Shown here one piece after another: positions 15,426 to 28,432 of a stretch of 37,362 nucleotides of DNA. The translations under genes were made by a program, and so were the position numbers. Source of the stretch: an uncultured Pseudomonadales bacterium (lineage in GTDB: Bacteria; Pseudomonadota; Gammaproteobacteria; Pseudomonadales; Azotimanducaceae); contig CAJJAQ010000025.1 of assembly GCA_905182095.1 (NCBI GenBank), positions 1 through 37,362 of the forward strand, read 5' to 3'. The notes below the pieces were generated by a model that was given only the letters and a program-made list of their open reading frames with translations, was not told the origin of the DNA and did no database searches. The stretch's first letter is position 1. The number at the start of each line of letters is the position of its first letter.

Positions 15426-16139
15426 GTGAACAAAAGTGAAAACCCCGTTTCCGATAATACGTACCGAAAAAGGCTTTTCGAGTTAGGTTCTTTGGTTAAT
15501 GGTAATCGCGCAAAGAGCCATGCCCACCGAAGCCAAATTATTGACAATGTAACAAACGGCCTGAGCAGTTTGCTAACGGCGTTTGGTCGAAATCGCAATT
15601 TAATGAGCGAGTCGACAACGAACATCTATCGATCGCGCAGAATTTTTGTTGAAAGCAATCCAGAATATCAGGCGCTGAGTGAGGGGCAGCGGCAACGAGT
15701 CATGGATGAGATTGAATACCAGTGTCTCAAGCAGCGCTCGGATAGCAATCGTGAAATTATGAGTCTGAATGTGGCGTTGACCCGCTTCAACAAAGAATTT
15801 GTCCAACTTTTACAAGCCGTGGGTGAAACCGATGCCGCGAAACTGCGTTTTAATCTTGATCAGCAAGAGCATAATGCCGACATATTGGCGCAAGGGCTGA
15901 ATGCATTGGAGCTTACTCCAGATTTGACCACATTAGATGGACTCATCGCGCAGTTGACTGAGCAAGTAGGCGGAAATACCGAGCTATTGGAAGAAGGCTT
16001 TGAAGCATCTAATCTCAACGGCGAAAAATTTGCAGAACTTCGTGCAAGCCTTGATAGCGAATTGGAAGCCATAGATGAGTGTTGGGGGCGAATTGAAGCC
16101 CAGCAGCTATTGGCGGCAGAATTGCTCGCCAGTTCTTGA
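15426..16139 (+). CDS. Unknown helical cytoplasmic protein inserted between fliO and fliP
   Basis: I do not recognise this 237-residue protein. It has no signal peptide or membrane segment and looks almost entirely alpha-helical. An N-terminal basic region rich in N/R/S (1-70, with two RNR/NRN patches) precedes a Q/R/E-rich middle, and an acidic Leu-rich C-terminal third (about 140-237) looks like a helical bundle or coiled coil. The start is GTG at 15426; the ribosome-binding site is weak. It follows fliO by 98 bp in the same direction, and no separate promoter is obvious, so it is probably read through from fliK-O. Size and composition would allow a chaperone-like role (as FlgN or FliT have), but no sequence match supports that. 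Confidence 0.75.
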   Translation: MNKSENPVSDNTYRKRLFELGSLVNGNRAKSHAHRSQIIDNVTNGLSSLLTAFGRNRNLMSESTTNIYRSRRIFVESNPEYQALSEGQRQRVMDEIEYQCLKQRSDSNREIMSLNVALTRFNKEFVQLLQAVGETDAAKLRFNLDQQEHNADILAQGLNALELTPDLTTLDGLIAQLTEQVGGNTELLEEGFEASNLNGEKFAELRASLDSELEAIDECWGRIEAQQLLAAELLASS

Positions 16140-16216: not shown

Positions 16217-17230
16217 CTATTGTGAGGCCCTCTTCTCTTCCATAAGTATTTCTACTGCACCAAGCAGATTGGAGTTAAGCGCAGTGCCTAGCCACAGTGG
16301 CAGGCTATTACGCAGTGTAATGAGCTGCGATTCTGTGCAATTGATGCCAGTTATCTTCAACCATTGGTCAAATTTTTCTCCACGTACGGTGGGGTTGTGA
16401 GTGCCTAACATCAGTGTACGTACCGAAGCTGTTGAGCACGGATTGATCTGCGGAAGCGACTCTACCGGCCCAAGGTCACTTGGTTTTGCCGAATCTAAAT
16501 CTGCGAGGTTTAGGCCCTGATTACTAAATGTGTTCTCAGGGGCGCTGGGGTTGTTTTCTCTCAGCACATTTAGATTTGTTACCGCTTCATTACTCTCCAG
16601 TGCCTGACGCAGTCCAGCGGTTTCTTCAGCTAGTGCTTCCTCCGCAGTCGCTGACCCTAGGCTTTGCTCTGCAACAACATCTTCCTCAGTTAGGATGTCT
16701 CGCTGCTTGAATATAGCTTCTGCATAGTCAGCTGCCTGCTCTGGTAAAGACGCTGCATTGGCGATAGTAGTCGGCCCCAGACGATAGCTGGCTAGGGTTT
16801 GGGTTAGCAGATCTTCACCTTGGGAGGTCGCATTGAGATCCATTAACTCTCTTAGGTAACTAACCCCTGCATCTATGTTTATGCACGGATCAAATAATAG
16901 GTCGCGCTGGGTAATGCCCAAATGTTCAGCGGTAAGAGGCCACTTTATTTGCATCAAACCAATGGCGCCTGAACTTGAAATGGCGTCGGGGTTGAGGCTG
17001 CTTTCTACAATAGCCACTGCTATGGCCAATTCAACTTCCACCTCGTAGCGATCAGCGGACCGAATAAAGCAATCGATATAGGGAATGTCGCCGAGGCGTT
17101 TGGCGCTGTCCTCGCTAAGTTCCGCCTCCTCTGCCCAACTTAGGCTACATGTCGCTGTCGCCAGAAGGACCAATACGGCCAGTCCTATTTGTCGTATGAA
17201 TGTTGACGAGGGCAGTAGTGTTTTAATCAC
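16217..17230 (-). CDS. Secreted lytic transglycosylase (SLT domain) inside the fli cluster
   Basis: This is a peptidoglycan-cleaving enzyme of the Slt/MltC-like fold. The 337 residues begin with a signal peptide (hydrophobic about 14-30, cleavage near SWA-EE). The transglycosylase domain follows, with catalytic Glu76 in AIVESSLNPDAISSSGAIGLMQI, the classic ESxxNPxAxSxxGAxGLMQI motif, and the later INIDAGVSYLRELM and ASYRLGPTTI motifs. The C-terminal half is Glu/Ala/Asn-rich linker plus a small helical end domain with two Cys. The gene runs antisense to the flanking fli genes and splits fliO from fliP. A role in opening peptidoglycan for the flagellar rod is suggested by context only; FlgJ normally does this job. 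Confidence 0.9.
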   Translation of the reverse strand: MIKTLLPSSTFIRQIGLAVLVLLATATCSLSWAEEAELSEDSAKRLGDIPYIDCFIRSADRYEVEVELAIAVAIVESSLNPDAISSSGAIGLMQIKWPLTAEHLGITQRDLLFDPCINIDAGVSYLRELMDLNATSQGEDLLTQTLASYRLGPTTIANAASLPEQAADYAEAIFKQRDILTEEDVVAEQSLGSATAEEALAEETAGLRQALESNEAVTNLNVLRENNPSAPENTFSNQGLNLADLDSAKPSDLGPVESLPQINPCSTASVRTLMLGTHNPTVRGEKFDQWLKITGINCTESQLITLRNSLPLWLGTALNSNLLGAVEILMEEKRASQ

Positions 17231-17470: not shown

Positions 17471-17486
17471 TGGCATCGACTTTGCA
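17471..17486 (+). promoter_or_regulatory. Sigma-54 promoter upstream of fliP
   Basis: The sequence TGGCATCGACTTTGCA shows TGGCA and TTGCA with GG-N10-GC spacing. Transcription is expected near 17498. It restores expression of the fliP-Q-R-flhB block, which is cut off from fliO by the two inserted genes. Confidence 0.78.
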
Positions 17487-18681: not shown

Positions 18682-19452
18682 ATGAATATCATGCTTCCAG
18701 AAATCGTCAACCTACTACAAAATTTTATGTGGCCCTTTGTCCGCGTATCTGTAGTACTGATTGCCGCGCCTTTGTTTGGTCTAGAAGCAATGAATCTGCG
18801 TATACGAATTGCCATTGGATTTGTCTTAACCTGGATGATCTTCCCGCTTGTGGATGTCCCGGATGTTGACCCCTTAAGTATTTTTGCAATCCAACTGATG
18901 ATCAACGAAATCATAGTTGGCGTAATGATGGGTCTCACTTTGCAGATCGTTATCGCTGCAATCTTAACCAGTGGGCAAGCAGTGTCATCGAGTATGGGTT
19001 TGGGTATGGCCAATATGGTAGACCCTAACTTAGGTAATGTTCCTACCTTGTCGCAGTTTTTCCTAGTCATCAGTATGTTGATTTTTCTCGGCCTGGGTGG
19101 CCATTTGGTAATTATCAGCATTCTGGTGCAAAGCTTTAGCTTGTTACCTATTGGATCAGGCTTGACCGGCACTAATGCTCTGGAAGGCTTCCTTGTTTGG
19201 TCATCGCAAATTTTTATTGGCGCTCTATCCTTGGTGCTACCTATAATCTTAGGTCTGCTTATGGTTAACGTCTGTTTGGGTGTTATCTCTAGAGCATCGC
19301 CAAGCTTGAATGTATTCGCTGTGGGTTTCCCTGCACTGATTCCTCTTGGTTTTGGCATGGTGATTATCACCATGGGGTTTATTGGATCCAGAATAGAAAG
19401 TCTGTGGTTTGCTGGCTTTCAAGTCCTTAACGAAAATTTGTTGGGCATATAA
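18682..19452 (+). CDS. fliR: Flagellar export gate protein FliR
   Basis: FliR completes the FliP5-FliR1 gate core. The 256-residue product is very hydrophobic with about six membrane segments. It carries the family pattern: VLIAAPLFGLEAMNLRIRIAIGF near the N-terminus, LMINEIIVGVMMGLTLQIVIAAILTSGQAVSSSMGLGMANMVDPNLGNVPTLSQF in the middle, and RASPSLNVFAVGFP in the C-terminal third. The stop TAA shares its last base with the flhB ATG, so the two are translationally coupled. Confidence 0.96.
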   Translation: MNIMLPEIVNLLQNFMWPFVRVSVVLIAAPLFGLEAMNLRIRIAIGFVLTWMIFPLVDVPDVDPLSIFAIQLMINEIIVGVMMGLTLQIVIAAILTSGQAVSSSMGLGMANMVDPNLGNVPTLSQFFLVISMLIFLGLGGHLVIISILVQSFSLLPIGSGLTGTNALEGFLVWSSQIFIGALSLVLPIILGLLMVNVCLGVISRASPSLNVFAVGFPALIPLGFGMVIITMGFIGSRIESLWFAGFQVLNENLLGI

Positions 19453-20603
19453 TGGCTGAAGAATCCTCACAAGACGATAAGACAGAAGAACCCACCGCGC
19501 GGAAATTGGAAAAAGCTCGGGAAGATGGCCAGGTTCTCCGCTCTCAAGACATGACAATTGCGGCAGTGACTATTTCTGTAATTGCCTCGATGTATGTTGG
19601 CGGTTTTTGGTTAGGCCCACAGTTTGTTGCAATATTTACTGAAGCCCTAACTATTCCGCCAAACTTTGCATTTGAAGAAAACTTGGCAATTGGCAGGTTT
19701 GGTAGATTAACTGCTGACAGTTTTTATGTGATGTTTCCAGTCTTTGCTGTGGCAGTGGTTATGGCAATTGCTTCAGCTACTGCGTTAGGTGGCTTTGTGG
19801 TCTCCGGTAAAGCGTTAATGCCGAAGGCGAGCAAATTAAACCCGCTTAAAGGTTTGGCGAGAATTTTTGGTACCAAAGCCCTAGTAGAGCTGGGTAAAGC
19901 GCTACTGAAATTTTCTATGGTGGCGCTCATTGGTGGCACTTACCTCTACTTTAATTTCGATCAAGTTCTGATGATTGGCCAAAGCCCAATTATGCGCGCC
20001 ATAGTACAAAGTATTGAATTTGTCTTGTTTGGTGCTCTTATAACTTCCTTGGCTCTGTTGGTGATTGCCGCCGTAGATGTGCCTTATCAAACCTATGAGT
20101 TTTTCAAAAAACTCAAGATGACCAAACAAGAAATAAAAGATGAGATGAAAGAGGTTGAGGGCCAGCCTGAAGTAAAACAAAAGATACGTCAGAAACAGCA
20201 GGAAATGGCTCAAGGCAGAATGCTCGATGATGTGCCTAAAGCCGATGTCATTGTCACCAACCCACAGCACTTCTCCGTGGCTTTAGTCTATGAAATGGAC
20301 CAGGAAGAGGCTCCCAAGGTGTTGGCCAAAGGTACAAATATGATGGCGCGACGTATCAGAGAAGTCGCCACAGAAAATGGCATTGAAATATTTGAGGCGC
20401 CACTATTGGCTCGTGCTTTGTATTTTACCACCAATATTGGTATGCCTATACCTCCAGGCTTATTTCATGCAGTGGCTCAAGTCATAGCTTATGTATATAG
20501 CCTAAATTCTATTACCCCAGGTGGTGGCGCAATGCACAAACCACGACCTAAAGTGCCAGATGAGTTGATATTTGATGAACTTGGACGCCGTAACGTTGAT
20601 TAA
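19452..20603 (+). CDS. flhB: Flagellar export specificity switch protein FlhB
   Basis: FlhB switches the export apparatus from hook-type to filament-type substrates. The 383 residues begin with the typical DDKTEEPTARKLEKAREDGQVLRSQDM motif, then four membrane segments, then a charged linker (KMTKQEIKDEMKEVEGQPEVKQKIRQKQQEMAQ). The cytoplasmic domain carries the autocleavage site at residues 270-273. That site reads NPQH, where most FlhB proteins have NPTH; the Asn and Pro needed for cleavage are present. The C-terminal domain (APLLARALYFTTNIGMPIP) is normal. In relatives flhA follows; here three unknown genes do. Confidence 0.97.
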   Translation: MAEESSQDDKTEEPTARKLEKAREDGQVLRSQDMTIAAVTISVIASMYVGGFWLGPQFVAIFTEALTIPPNFAFEENLAIGRFGRLTADSFYVMFPVFAVAVVMAIASATALGGFVVSGKALMPKASKLNPLKGLARIFGTKALVELGKALLKFSMVALIGGTYLYFNFDQVLMIGQSPIMRAIVQSIEFVLFGALITSLALLVIAAVDVPYQTYEFFKKLKMTKQEIKDEMKEVEGQPEVKQKIRQKQQEMAQGRMLDDVPKADVIVTNPQHFSVALVYEMDQEEAPKVLAKGTNMMARRIREVATENGIEIFEAPLLARALYFTTNIGMPIPPGLFHAVAQVIAYVYSLNSITPGGGAMHKPRPKVPDELIFDELGRRNVD

Positions 20604-20622: not shown

Positions 20623-22059
20623 ATGATCCCTTTAAAAGAAGAACCAATATTGGCCGAAGGCTTATGTTTTAGCCCAGAAGACAGCCATGCAGTGGATACC
20701 TGCCGGAATGCTCTGATCTACGCAGGATCGGTCGTCATCACAGCTGCTGGCAATGAAAGTCTGCTGGCTCATTATACCCGAGTGCTGCTCAGCCAAATGC
20801 CCGGGCAAACTGCTACCGGTCAACGCAAGCTGTCCGTACGCAGAATGCCCGGAGATAAAGATGGCTTATTGGCCGCATTGAACCGGTTACTTGCGGAACT
20901 AGATTTTAAGAGCGTTGAGGCAAAGAAAAAGGTCCCAACCACAGAAATCTGGTTGTATGAATTGCCAGGACCCAGTGACTCAGAAATGATTGTTACTACG
21001 GCAAAGATGATTCGACAGTTTAAGGCGGCCGGAGTTTCCATCATTGTTAACTCTCGACAAGCGCGTCCAGGCTCTGAGCTATTGAGCAAATTGGCTCAGC
21101 GAATTAAAGGTACGTTAGTAGAGTTCGCCTTACCAAATAAAGATTCTTGTATAGCGCTAGCAGAGAAAGTGGCTGGCAGTTCGGATGCGTTACAGGTGAA
21201 TGGCCTGATTAGAGATCTGGGTTATACCATTCAGAAAAGTCAGCCAGCAACCCTGTCCGTCTTTCCTCAAGAAGCAAGTGATGGCCTATCGACTGCAGAG
21301 TTTTTGACTCAACGTCAAACCGAAAAAATTAAACGACCTGTGACGGCGAAAACCAATTCGGCAGCCAAACTGCCTACGCCTAGGTATATTGGCAAAGGCT
21401 CTAAACGGTCTTTGTTAGTGGGTGGTGTAGTTGCTTCTATAGCTCTGTTTGGCCTGTATGCTGTTAATGACAAAGATTGGCACGAGGAGCAAAGTGCAAT
21501 CAGTAATTTATATGCGGGTTTAACTGAAAGTGCGCCAATAGCCGCCGCCAGTCAAATTGCAGGCGCGCTGCCGGATGCAATCGTTGTGGGCGCTGCCACT
21601 AACGCAATCGTCGAAAATCCAGCTGTAGAAAAGTTAGATGTTGGGGCTGCAGAAAAAATTGCCGTCGGTAAATCGCCAGCACAAATGGCCTCGCTCGCAG
21701 CTTCCCTAGCAGAAACCTTGCAACCTGCGGATGCAGAGGACATTTTGTCTGAGCTTTTTATTGTTAAGCCGCCGCGGCCTAACGCGAAGGCGGTTTACGT
21801 ACAACATGCTTCCTTTCGGCTGACTCAGGGTGCATATATTTGGAAGAGCAATGCAAAACGCTTAGCGAACGCACAAATTTATAGTAAAGGCAGTGTGGAT
21901 ACCCGTTTCGTAGTAGTTAGCGGCCCCTTTGCCGACCGACTTGAAGCTCAGGCATATTTAGATAGTGTAGGTGTAATGGACAAAGCCTATTTCATTCTAG
22001 GCGGTGCCTTAGGCGAGCCTCTGGCTGGGGCCAACAACGTTTTAGCGAGTATGGAGTAG
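20623..22059 (+). CDS. Membrane protein with degenerate ATPase-like N-terminus and C-terminal SPOR-like domain
   Basis: The 478-residue product resembles DamX/ExeA-type architecture. Residues 1-210 look like a P-loop-type domain in which the Walker A is lost (VVITAAGNESLLAHY lacks GKS/T) while a Walker B-like strand remains (EIWLYELPG). There is one membrane segment at about 263-283. An Ala-rich periplasmic linker leads to a SPOR-like domain at about 388-460 (YVQHASFRL ... RFVVVSGPFADRLEAQAYLDSVG). SPOR domains bind denuded glycan strands at division sites (established). ATG 20623 with AGGAC seven bases upstream is preferred to 20575, which would overlap flhB. It is followed 3 bp later by the next gene. 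A role in placing or anchoring the flagellum is inferred from context. Confidence 0.8.
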   Translation: MIPLKEEPILAEGLCFSPEDSHAVDTCRNALIYAGSVVITAAGNESLLAHYTRVLLSQMPGQTATGQRKLSVRRMPGDKDGLLAALNRLLAELDFKSVEAKKKVPTTEIWLYELPGPSDSEMIVTTAKMIRQFKAAGVSIIVNSRQARPGSELLSKLAQRIKGTLVEFALPNKDSCIALAEKVAGSSDALQVNGLIRDLGYTIQKSQPATLSVFPQEASDGLSTAEFLTQRQTEKIKRPVTAKTNSAAKLPTPRYIGKGSKRSLLVGGVVASIALFGLYAVNDKDWHEEQSAISNLYAGLTESAPIAAASQIAGALPDAIVVGAATNAIVENPAVEKLDVGAAEKIAVGKSPAQMASLAASLAETLQPADAEDILSELFIVKPPRPNAKAVYVQHASFRLTQGAYIWKSNAKRLANAQIYSKGSVDTRFVVVSGPFADRLEAQAYLDSVGVMDKAYFILGGALGEPLAGANNVLASME

Positions 22060-22062
22060 ACC

Positions 22063-23055
22063 ATGGCTGACGAAGATAATAAGAATAACGAAACGCAGTT
22101 ACCTGAAGCAGAAGAAACCTTCGATTCTAGCGCCGCTGTAGATGCAATTGTTGAGGGCACACGCAACCGAGCTGATGAAATTGAAGAGGCGTTGGATGGC
22201 GCCTTAGCCGACAAAGAAGCAGCCAGCAGTAGCGAAGTTGCGGAGGCGAGCCCTGAGATCGTCCTGGATTTGGGCGAGGCAGAAATAGTCAAACCAGCGG
22301 GCAAGCCAGCCGATAAGGCAGCTAACAAGGCGGCCGATAAAAAAGGCGATGTCGAAGAACCTAAATTACAAATTCATGTAGGCAAAGATGATGTGCGGAT
22401 TTCTACTGGGCATCCGCTGATAGATGACATTGCGGCGCAGCTGGAAAAGTCTCGCAAGTTCACCATGTATGCCGTGTCATCTCTATGTATTGCGTTGCTT
22501 GCCGGTGTTTTGTTTTACATCTTTATGTCGACGCAGATCTCGAAAAAAATATCAGAAGTAGATTCGATGATCGGCCTTGTTGCCAAACGTACCTTGCAGG
22601 TGACGAAAGGCATTGAAACCTTTAGCACGTTGGAGCAAAGCATTGGCAAAACGCTAGAGAATCAGACCTCATTAGCTGAAACTTTAGCAGCCAACGAGTT
22701 GGCGGTAGTACAATTGGAACTTAAAATTGCCGCATTAAACGAAAATATGCAGGCAGATATTGGACGAGTGGTAGATGAAAGTAGTAATTATCTGGTGCAA
22801 ACTAGAAGTGTTCTGCAAGAAGAAAACCAGAAGACTTTCAATACCTTAGGCGAGTTGCAAAGCGTTTTGACGGAGCAGCGTGGAATGATTGCTCCTATCA
22901 GCAATCTGAGTCGTGAGCTTAGTCAGGTCAGAGTCGACCTAGCCGAGGTGCGACAGACTATAGATGATTTATATATTATTGAACGCGCTCGTATGGCCCG
23001 GGAGTTGTTGGACCAAAGGGACGCGACGGTGAGTCAATCGAGTGTCGAAAAATAG
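22063..23055 (+). CDS. Unknown single-pass membrane protein with long coiled coil
   Basis: The 330-residue product is not recognised. It has an acidic, Ala/Lys-rich disordered cytoplasmic part (1-110, with a short KPADKAANKAADKK repeat-like stretch), one membrane segment at about 134-155, and a long C-terminal helical coiled-coil region (about 157-315) rich in L/E/Q/T. The coiled coil would lie in the periplasm if the N-terminus is inside. The gene starts 3 bp after the SPOR protein's stop, so the two are almost certainly co-translated. Its layout is compatible with a scaffold or with a peptidoglycan-reaching tether. No enzyme motif is visible. Confidence 0.8.
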   Translation: MADEDNKNNETQLPEAEETFDSSAAVDAIVEGTRNRADEIEEALDGALADKEAASSSEVAEASPEIVLDLGEAEIVKPAGKPADKAANKAADKKGDVEEPKLQIHVGKDDVRISTGHPLIDDIAAQLEKSRKFTMYAVSSLCIALLAGVLFYIFMSTQISKKISEVDSMIGLVAKRTLQVTKGIETFSTLEQSIGKTLENQTSLAETLAANELAVVQLELKIAALNENMQADIGRVVDESSNYLVQTRSVLQEENQKTFNTLGELQSVLTEQRGMIAPISNLSRELSQVRVDLAEVRQTIDDLYIIERARMARELLDQRDATVSQSSVEK

Positions 23056-23150
23056 CGGCATACTTCGATTGCTATAGACTGGCTGCGAAAACTTTTGGTA
23101 GATAATATTGGGAACTGTTGCCGAGCCATTTTTTGAGGAATAGCTAAATC

Positions 23151-23780
23151 ATGTCACAGTCGTTTGTCGTTCCAGCGTTAATTATCGCCGTAGGTTTGCT
23201 GATTTCACTGATTTTTGTCTTCATGATCTATCTTTGGCAGCGCATAACAGCATTAGAAAAAAGTAGGGGCAAGGACGCGGCAGTAGAAGTTAAGCAGGCT
23301 GGCGCGGCGCTACTTGGGTTTAAGGGCAAAGAAATTTGGGATGTGCTTGAAAACCCGGATAAAGCGCCAGTAAATATCGATGAGTTAAGGCAACGCTACT
23401 CCTTCACCCTGTCTCGGCATATAGAACAAATTATTGATCAAGGCCAAATGGACAAGCAAGCCGGGCGAGAGTCGATGCCGCAAAGTAATGCCGCTATTGG
23501 TGGTTTGCGAGGCGAAATTGAATCTTGGTTGCCGCCGTCCTATGTCTCTCGTTTTTATCGCATTGGTCAAGATTCCGCCATTCTATCTGACGATGAGGTT
23601 GCGGAGTTGCGTACGGAAGTGAGGGTTTTAGTAAAGGAGATATTGACGCGTTTAGGTATGTCGGCTGAAGCCAGTGGCATTGGCAGCCTGATTACTTCGC
23701 ACACTTTAGAATTCCGCAGCAACGCAGCTAACCCAGAGCCTGAAGAAGAAGACCCGGAACAGGGCAAAGCAAATCCCTAA
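23151..23780 (+). CDS. Unknown N-terminally anchored membrane protein at the end of the fli cluster
   Basis: The 209-residue protein has an N-terminal membrane anchor (about 6-29), a basic patch, and a cytoplasmic domain with two apparent halves: about 45-100 (GAALLGFKGKEIWDVLENPDK ... DELRQRYSFTLSRHIEQIIDQG) and about 120-190 (PPSYVSRFYRIGQ ... EVAELRTEVRVLVKEILTRLGM). It ends in an acidic Pro/Glu tail. It is not recognised as a known flagellar protein. A 95-bp gap separates it from the coiled-coil gene, and a GAGGAATAG stretch precedes the ATG. It is the last gene of the flagellar block; uvrD begins 360 bp further on. Confidence 0.75.
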   Translation: MSQSFVVPALIIAVGLLISLIFVFMIYLWQRITALEKSRGKDAAVEVKQAGAALLGFKGKEIWDVLENPDKAPVNIDELRQRYSFTLSRHIEQIIDQGQMDKQAGRESMPQSNAAIGGLRGEIESWLPPSYVSRFYRIGQDSAILSDDEVAELRTEVRVLVKEILTRLGMSAEASGIGSLITSHTLEFRSNAANPEPEEEDPEQGKANP

Positions 23781-24140
23781 ATTGCCAGATATCTGCGTCA
23801 GAGCTTAAATTCCACACTTATGGGCGACTCGCTAGGTAGAACATAGCGGGCTTTGCGGCTTGGGCCACTAGTTTGCCAAACCTCAATTCCTAGAACTATA
23901 TCTAGAGCTGTATCTAGAGCTGTATCTAGGGCTATACCTAGGGCTATACCCAGAGCTATACCCAGAACCCCAATTGGGCCGAGAGTAGGTTGCGAAAACC
24001 GTAACGCCGAGCCCGCCTGATAGCCCAAATAGCTACTGAACACCTTTTAGCTCTGTAACGCCCAGCCAAGATCCGCCGAGTAATGTATTATCCTTAGAAC
24101 TTAAGCCTATTTTGCATGATTCGCGTTTTCGAGGAATAAA
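23781..24140. other. 360-bp intergenic region before uvrD
   Basis: The gap contains the 12-bp tandem array at 23890-23968. It also contains a minus-strand frame of 81 codons (23798-24043, GTG start, no good ribosome-binding site) that reads across the array as GIAL/DTAL tetrapeptides. I treat that frame as unproven. No convincing terminator or promoter is visible; GAGG at 24131-24134 serves uvrD. Confidence 0.6.
23890..23968. repeat. 12-bp tandem repeat array, six copies plus a partial copy
   Basis: Units of the form CTAGAGCTGTAT / CTAGGGCTATAC / CCAGAGCTATAC follow without gaps from 23890, diverging gradually from left to right. The left units resemble each other most and the right units carry CCAGA. 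Gradual change along the array suggests growth by slippage followed by mutation. Because the unit is a multiple of three, any frame across it stays open. Confidence 0.9.
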
Positions 24141-28354: not shown

Positions 28355-28432
28355 TTAGATTTTCAGTCTAGATTTTCAGTCTAGATTTTTGGTCTAGATT
28401 TGCGTTCTAGATCTGCGCTCTAAACCTGCGCG
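28355..28432. repeat. 13-bp tandem repeat array, six copies
   Basis: Six gapless 13-bp units run from TTAGATTTTCAGT through CTAGATTTTCAGT, CTAGATTTTTGGT, CTAGATTTGCGTT and CTAGATCTGCGCT to CTAAACCTGCGCG. They fill the gap between the convergent enoyl-CoA hydratase gene and dctM. Units change step by step from AT-rich to GC-rich along the array. The CTAGA core is shared with the 12-bp array at 23890, though the units differ otherwise. Confidence 0.9.

Follow-up and report, generated by a model that had tools for sequence, protein, structure and literature searches.

In the accounts given in PMC11620751 and PMC12826062, FlhF brings FliG and FliF to the cell pole, together with HubP and FipA. 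It is an open question how a polar flagellum finds the pole and whether this is coupled to wall growth; a 2025 review (PMC12826062) draws attention to spatial factors still missing for FlhF and to a coupling with the growth of the cell wall. Here we describe three genes, termed P1, P2 and P3, that lie 3′ of the flagellar gene flhB in a 37,362 nt stretch of DNA (the window, to whose positions plain coordinates refer) from an uncultured Pseudomonadales bacterium of the Azotimanducaceae (GCA_905182095.1, contig CAJJAQ010000025.1; genome G000), together with a linked gene, x179. The three genes are very probably a dedicated flagellar module. P1 is a SPOR-domain protein encoded behind flhB, with flhF-operon partners, in three bacterial families, and is a direct candidate for a factor that joins pole finding to the cell wall.

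Several described proteins invite comparison. SPOR domains bind glycan lacking stem peptides, according to a title cited in PMC12918733, and the SPOR protein RgsS of Sinorhizobium is described as selecting the new pole (PMC7822825). The likeness to P1 lies in the use of a SPOR domain to recognise processed wall as a mark of the new pole, as we propose below; however, RgsS is concerned with polar growth rather than flagella, and it is set beside P1 by description only. ExeA, as presented in PMC4098917, unites in one protein an AAA domain, a single membrane segment and a domain that binds the wall, and has a membrane partner, ExeB. The same source describes ExeA–ExeB (GspA–GspB) as a wall-bound complex that multimerizes on peptidoglycan and scaffolds assembly, with a required ATPase domain. 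P1 has this plan, with P2 as the putative partner, but the Exe proteins serve type II secretion with an active ATPase, whereas P1 is flagellar, carries a SPOR domain and lacks the ATPase motif. The third comparison is DamX, which has the same domain order as P1 (AAA-type domain, membrane segment, C-terminal SPOR domain). Unlike P1, DamX keeps the Walker A motif (G57, G59 and K60 are invariant in an alignment of six proteins) and is encoded behind aroB, whereas P1 lies behind flhB and its occurrence tracks flagella. The system is FlhF-type flagellation in a modified form, with a component related to DamX, and a search of the open-access literature found no earlier description of such a module.

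A three-gene module linked to flagellar genes

A sequence-only reading of the window had proposed a three-gene membrane module behind flhB. The open reading frames (ORFs) were confirmed, and they represent genes rather than chance ORFs because they are conserved among relatives: identities of P1–P3 are 69–84 % in the three nearest genomes and 17–28 % in the most distant aligned rows. All are on the + strand, with gaps of 19 bp between flhB and P1, 3 bp between P1 and P2, and 95 bp between P2 and P3. The features are as follows.

19452–20603, + strand: flhB, immediately 5′ of P1 (TIGR00328, 378.8 bits, over cut-off)
20623–22059, + strand: P1, 478 amino acids (aa), with a degenerate AAA+ domain, membrane segment, linker and SPOR domain; DamX-related
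20671–21222, + strand: P1 N-domain, residues 17–200, AAA+ fold without Walker A (predicted structure, fold search, alignment)
21409–21465, + strand: P1 membrane segment, residues 263–281 (hydropathy)
21790–22023, + strand: P1 SPOR domain, residues 390–467 (profile match and predicted structure)
22063–23055, + strand: P2, 330 aa, with a membrane segment (residues 137–155), a coiled-coil-type C-terminal part and the conserved end DLYxIExAR
23151–23780, + strand: P3, 209 aa, with an N-terminal anchor (residues 10–28) and a helical domain

Occurrence was surveyed among 58 near relatives and among 390 genomes of the order (genera are labelled g1, g15 and g99; families f1, which is the window's, f15 and f41). 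P1 was found in 26 of the near relatives, namely 25 of the 37 genomes of genus g1 and G050 from another family, and lies immediately 3′ of flhB in all 26, although the contig of G023 holds only the flhB tail. The sequence-only reading had allowed for homologues occurring mostly without flagellar genes; the opposite was found. Nine g1 genomes carry flhB without P1, and in each of them flhA is 3′ of flhB; three others of this genus lack flhB as well as P1. In nine of ten loci from other families, the first flagellar gene after flhB is flhA (genes intervene in G043, G055 and G057), and G054 has no flhA near flhB.

The P1 profile matched 31 of the 390 genomes, 23 strongly (5 in f1, 11 in f15 and 7 in f41) and eight weakly and partially. 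An flhB match was present in all 23 strong P1 genomes, the weak one being that of G339, whose contig starts at P1. Both flhB and P1 are missing from at least three g15 genomes (G092, G179 and G223) and from two g99 genomes (G316 and G387). The eight partial matches cover the SPOR part of P1 (E values 6e-7 to 7.5e-4), and flhB was found in none of the four neighbourhoods read. A scan of named genomes gave 24 loci, all from uncultured bacteria, several of them labelled K189A clade, OM182 or HTCC2089.

In f15 and f41 the module is linked to the flhF operon. In all 15 mapped loci of these families, two of which end at a contig edge, flhB-P1-P2 converges with an flhA-flhF-flhG-fliA operon on the opposite strand, and in most of them a small gene lies between P1 and P2. 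The operon ends with x179-P3 in 14 of the 15 (G419 lacks both genes), which makes P3 a member of the flhF operon. The window's clade has a different layout: its flhA operon lies at another place in the genome, x179 follows fliA in nine loci, and P3 follows P2. The claim that the trio stands in place of flhA-flhF-flhG holds for the position behind flhB but not for gene content: in the window's genome flhA-flhF-flhG-fliA sits on contig C11, moved and not lost. In P1 loci that extend far enough, FlgP-like and FlgT-like genes adjoin flhA.

The x179 gene (L098:9754-10293, − strand, 3′ of fliA) encodes a soluble protein without a Pfam match. Its presence agreed with that of P3 in all 25 scored genomes (20 with both, five with neither), and each gene changed state twice on the FlhB tree, giving two independent pairs, too few for significance. 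Weak matches to x179 away from fliA in L094, L096 and L203 (E values 8e-4 to 0.004), loci scored as x179-negative or left unscored, are read as chance. It is very likely that P1, P2, P3 and x179 serve a single flagellar lineage as dedicated components.

The FlhB phylogeny is consistent with a single lineage. In the FlhB tree, which comprises 63 rows, a branch with support of 100/99 sets apart the 39 P1-positive ones, which come from three families. Forcing monophyly of f41 or of f15 was rejected (p-AU, from the approximately unbiased test, 2e-6 and 2.9e-6, respectively). The only P1-negative f15 row, G243, forms a long branch just outside the P1-positive clade, and sibling genera in f41 and f15 (G277, G335, G143, G216 and G243) have flhB-flhA and no P1. 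Transfer of the P1 locus from one family to another and an old, alternative locus type would both account for this, and the data favour neither.

Architecture of P1, P2 and P3

The sole Pfam family over its cut-off in the scanned P1–P3 proteins was SPOR, in P1. With a cut-off of 21 bits, the P1 of the window fell above it in the genome search (22.1) and below it in hmmscan (19.0), and the P1 proteins of G050 (f15, 21.1 bits) and G352 (f41, 22.2 bits) each passed it alone. The model of the C-terminal domain (residues 391–467) has the order strand-helix-strand-strand-helix-strand, with block means of 66–86. The mean pLDDT (predicted local distance difference test) of the whole P1 model is 62, a low value that comes from long linkers; in the N-domain (about residues 17–200) the means of 10-residue blocks are 70–89, bar one of 57 and one of 63.

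Fold searches of P1 returned matches to this N-domain, the SPOR part being outside their reach. Foldseek found AAA+ proteins (clamp loaders, ORC and DnaA; best E value 1.3e-4). VIA-align gave Z scores of up to 9.8, with almost every listed row an AAA+ protein, and by the tool's own warning best Z scores of 7–8 are common. GK[ST] was present at the Walker A place in none of 14 aligned P1 rows. The sequence-only reading of P1 as a protein with a dead P-loop-like N-terminus, a membrane segment and a SPOR-like C-terminus was therefore accurate. The hydrophobic segment at residues 263–281 is strong, and a second, at residue 312, is borderline. Charge bias suggests that the N-domain is inside and the SPOR domain outside the inner membrane, and the SPOR domain itself suggests peptidoglycan binding by this outer part.

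Hydropathy likewise bore out the predicted membrane segment of P2, 3 bp behind P1, and the N-terminal anchor of P3. P2 has one strong hydrophobic segment (residues 137–155) followed by a C-terminal part that resembles a coiled coil, as the sequence-only reading had noted; a relationship of P2 to DamX was considered and rejected. By hydropathy and charge, P3 is predicted to consist of an N-terminal anchor (residues 10–28) and a cytoplasmic domain. Its model is helical (mean pLDDT 71), and fold searches gave no useful match (best Foldseek E value 1.2; best VIA-align Z 4.7), which is no proof of a new fold. A second P3-like protein was observed in G050 outside the flagellar locus (L107:8253-8891, − strand), with 34 % identity to the flagellar P3 of that genome.

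Relationship of P1 to DamX

A DamX profile was built from six proteins that have AAA_22 and SPOR domains and are encoded behind aroB. Compared with the P1 N-domain by hhalign, it gave 98.1 % (E value 1.4e-13) over 169 columns, and P1 may have descended from DamX. A full DamX is encoded behind aroB in six of eight P1-negative genomes versus none of seven evaluable P1-positive genomes. In the latter, the gene behind aroB encodes a SPOR-only protein in G000 and G036 (in G000, the window's own genome, a 156-aa protein at L286:2783-3253, − strand), and an AAA domain and membrane segment without SPOR in G050 and, by likeness, in G125; in G195, G257 and G352 there is no intervening gene. DamX reduction at this site thus takes two modes, SPOR only (G000) and AAA without SPOR (G050, L278:1438-2256, + strand).

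FlhF in P1-positive genomes

FlhF proteins of the window's clade retain the N-terminus and the P-loop, but they have lost switch I, and their DTAG and TKxDE motifs are changed; altered motifs also occur in some P1-negative FlhF proteins. The FlhF of the window's genome (L108:1776-3017, − strand, contig C11) has no Pfam match at an E value of 0.001. SRP54 matched none of 16 FlhF proteins from the window's clade (drawn from 25 P1-positive g1 genomes), all 14 from f15 and f41, and 17 of 18 from P1-negative genomes (a set of 20, with two dropped). Judged by sequence, FlhF of this clade is degenerate and no longer recognised as a GTPase of the signal recognition particle (SRP) type. The idea that degenerate FlhF marks every P1 locus was rejected, since FlhF of f15 and f41 is still recognised. 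A clade whose FlhF has lost a recognisable GTPase domain is of interest in itself.

A possible role in flagellar placement or anchoring

We put at roughly 45 % the probability that the trio and x179 form a peptidoglycan-reading module for flagellar placement or anchoring. Such a role fits because P3 is linked to flhF-flhG in two other families. The sequence-only reading had suggested it, and the tie of the trio to flagella and the linkage of P3 agree with that suggestion; the localization, partners and function of P1–P3 and x179 are what we infer.

In the mechanism that we envisage, the SPOR domain of P1 would bind denuded glycan at the septum and the young pole from outside the inner membrane, and the nucleotide-dead AAA+ domain would form a fixed scaffold inside. 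P2 would be the membrane partner of P1. P3 and x179 would act beside FlhF and FlhG, their genes occupying the place that the FipA gene takes in other gammaproteobacteria, and the cell wall would serve to keep the FlhF-FliG-FliF seed at the pole. If this is true, reading of the cell wall is the way in which an entire flagellar lineage of marine gammaproteobacteria positions its flagellum. We tentatively extend the proposal to its origin, in a form that we consider somewhat unlikely: a DamX-kind division protein would have been recruited, lost its ATPase and become a septal or young-pole wall landmark for flagella with P2, P3 and x179, and in the window's clade this would have made the FlhF GTPase switch dispensable, after which the switch decayed. 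In that case a flagellar locus would have captured a protein of the division type.

The known partners of FlhF offer a comparison. FipA resembles P3 in having an N-terminal anchor and a cytoplasmic domain (predicted for P3) and, as its gene position is described in the literature cited above, in lying after the flhF-flhG-fliA operon, the place of P3 in the 14 f15/f41 loci but not in the window's clade. FipA differs in its DUF2802 domain, for which P3 has neither a match nor profile similarity. DUF2802 was found in 161 of the 390 genomes, and in 0 of 23 P1-positive versus 157 of 272 other flhB-positive genomes (Fisher p 9e-9, uncorrected for kinship). HubP/FimV would share with the module its proposed job, that of a wall-linked landmark drawing FlhF to the pole. 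It differs in that no LysM-like or FimV C-terminal domain was matched in P1, P2 or P3 with Pfam or NCBIfam, and the window's genome carries a separate FimV C-terminal domain.

Several observations weigh against a placement or anchoring role. Within f1, f15 and f41, only one of nine P1-negative, flhB-positive genomes has FipA (f1 0/3; f15 1/2, the positive being G243; f41 0/4). The FipA contrast is therefore mostly kinship and is weakened as proof of replacement, and since flagellated relatives without P1 are for the most part devoid of FipA as well, our confidence in the role is lowered. Homology of P3 to FipA was rejected (no DUF2802 Pfam match; hhalign 0.9 %). FimV_Cterm is retained in 359 of the 390 genomes, including the window's own, which weakens the idea that P1–P3 replace HubP/FimV. 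Finally, P1-P2 occurs without P3 in ten loci (nine g1 genomes, and G419, for which this holds for the locus only).

The chief rival, which we regard as unlikely, is that P1-P2 is a wall-bound inner-membrane scaffold of the ExeA–ExeB kind, on which the rod and the rings (P, L or FlgP/FlgT type) are assembled, and which has no part in site choice. The shared plan set out above speaks for it (AAA domain inside, membrane segment, wall-binding domain outside and, as described for ExeB, a single-segment partner), as do the FlgP-like and FlgT-like genes beside flhA. However, ExeA is described as needing its ATPase domain, whereas P1 has no Walker A motif; the wall domain of ExeA is not SPOR; and in f15 and f41 x179-P3 forms part of the flhF operon, an arrangement that suits placement or anchoring beside FlhF.

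It is distinctly improbable that P1 is simply a relocated DamX that retains a division role and is co-expressed with flagellar genes to coordinate division and motility, a reading that would also tell against a placement role. The hhalign result over the N-domain and the contrast behind aroB favour it. The sequence-only reading had recognised that a DamX match with a pure division role would weaken its proposal; the N-domain is indeed DamX-related, but P1 is present or absent along with flhB, being missing wherever flhB is missing in g1, g15 and g99, its AAA+ motif has been lost, and it stays by flhB. That P1-P2, perhaps with P3, is an export-gate or motor accessory bracing FlhB/FlhA or the stator against the wall is very doubtful: its constant place behind flhB and the membrane-spanning, wall-binding plan of P1 would suit such a brace, but no feature pointing specifically to FlhB or the stator came to light, and x179-P3 is in the flhF operon in two families.

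Other features of the window

The sequence-only reading had P1 and P2 tightly coupled behind the fliP-flhB promoter. The gap between P1 and P2 is 3 bp, and the flhB–P1 and P1–P2 intervals have no terminator-like site on the + strand. A promoter candidate lies ahead of fliP.

17471–17485, + strand: sigma-54-like promoter site with one mismatch, 5′ of fliP-fliQ-fliR-flhB-P1-P2

Sites of this class are at chance level, with 54 found in the window against 45.5 expected, and scans for sigma-70 promoters and terminators also gave site numbers at chance level.

A lytic transglycosylase gene (SLT, 80 bits; 16217–17230, − strand) runs against the grain between fliO and fliP. It is present at the same position in the P1-positive f1 loci mapped across this stretch, and was not seen in the f15/f41 loci mapped across it. 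Located 3′ of fliO, a gene at 15426–16139 (+ strand) encodes a 237-aa protein with no Pfam match, which blastp finds in only some g1 loci. Short tandem repeats of 12 and 13 bp lie at 23890–23960, behind P3, and at 28356–28431, behind an ECH-like gene.

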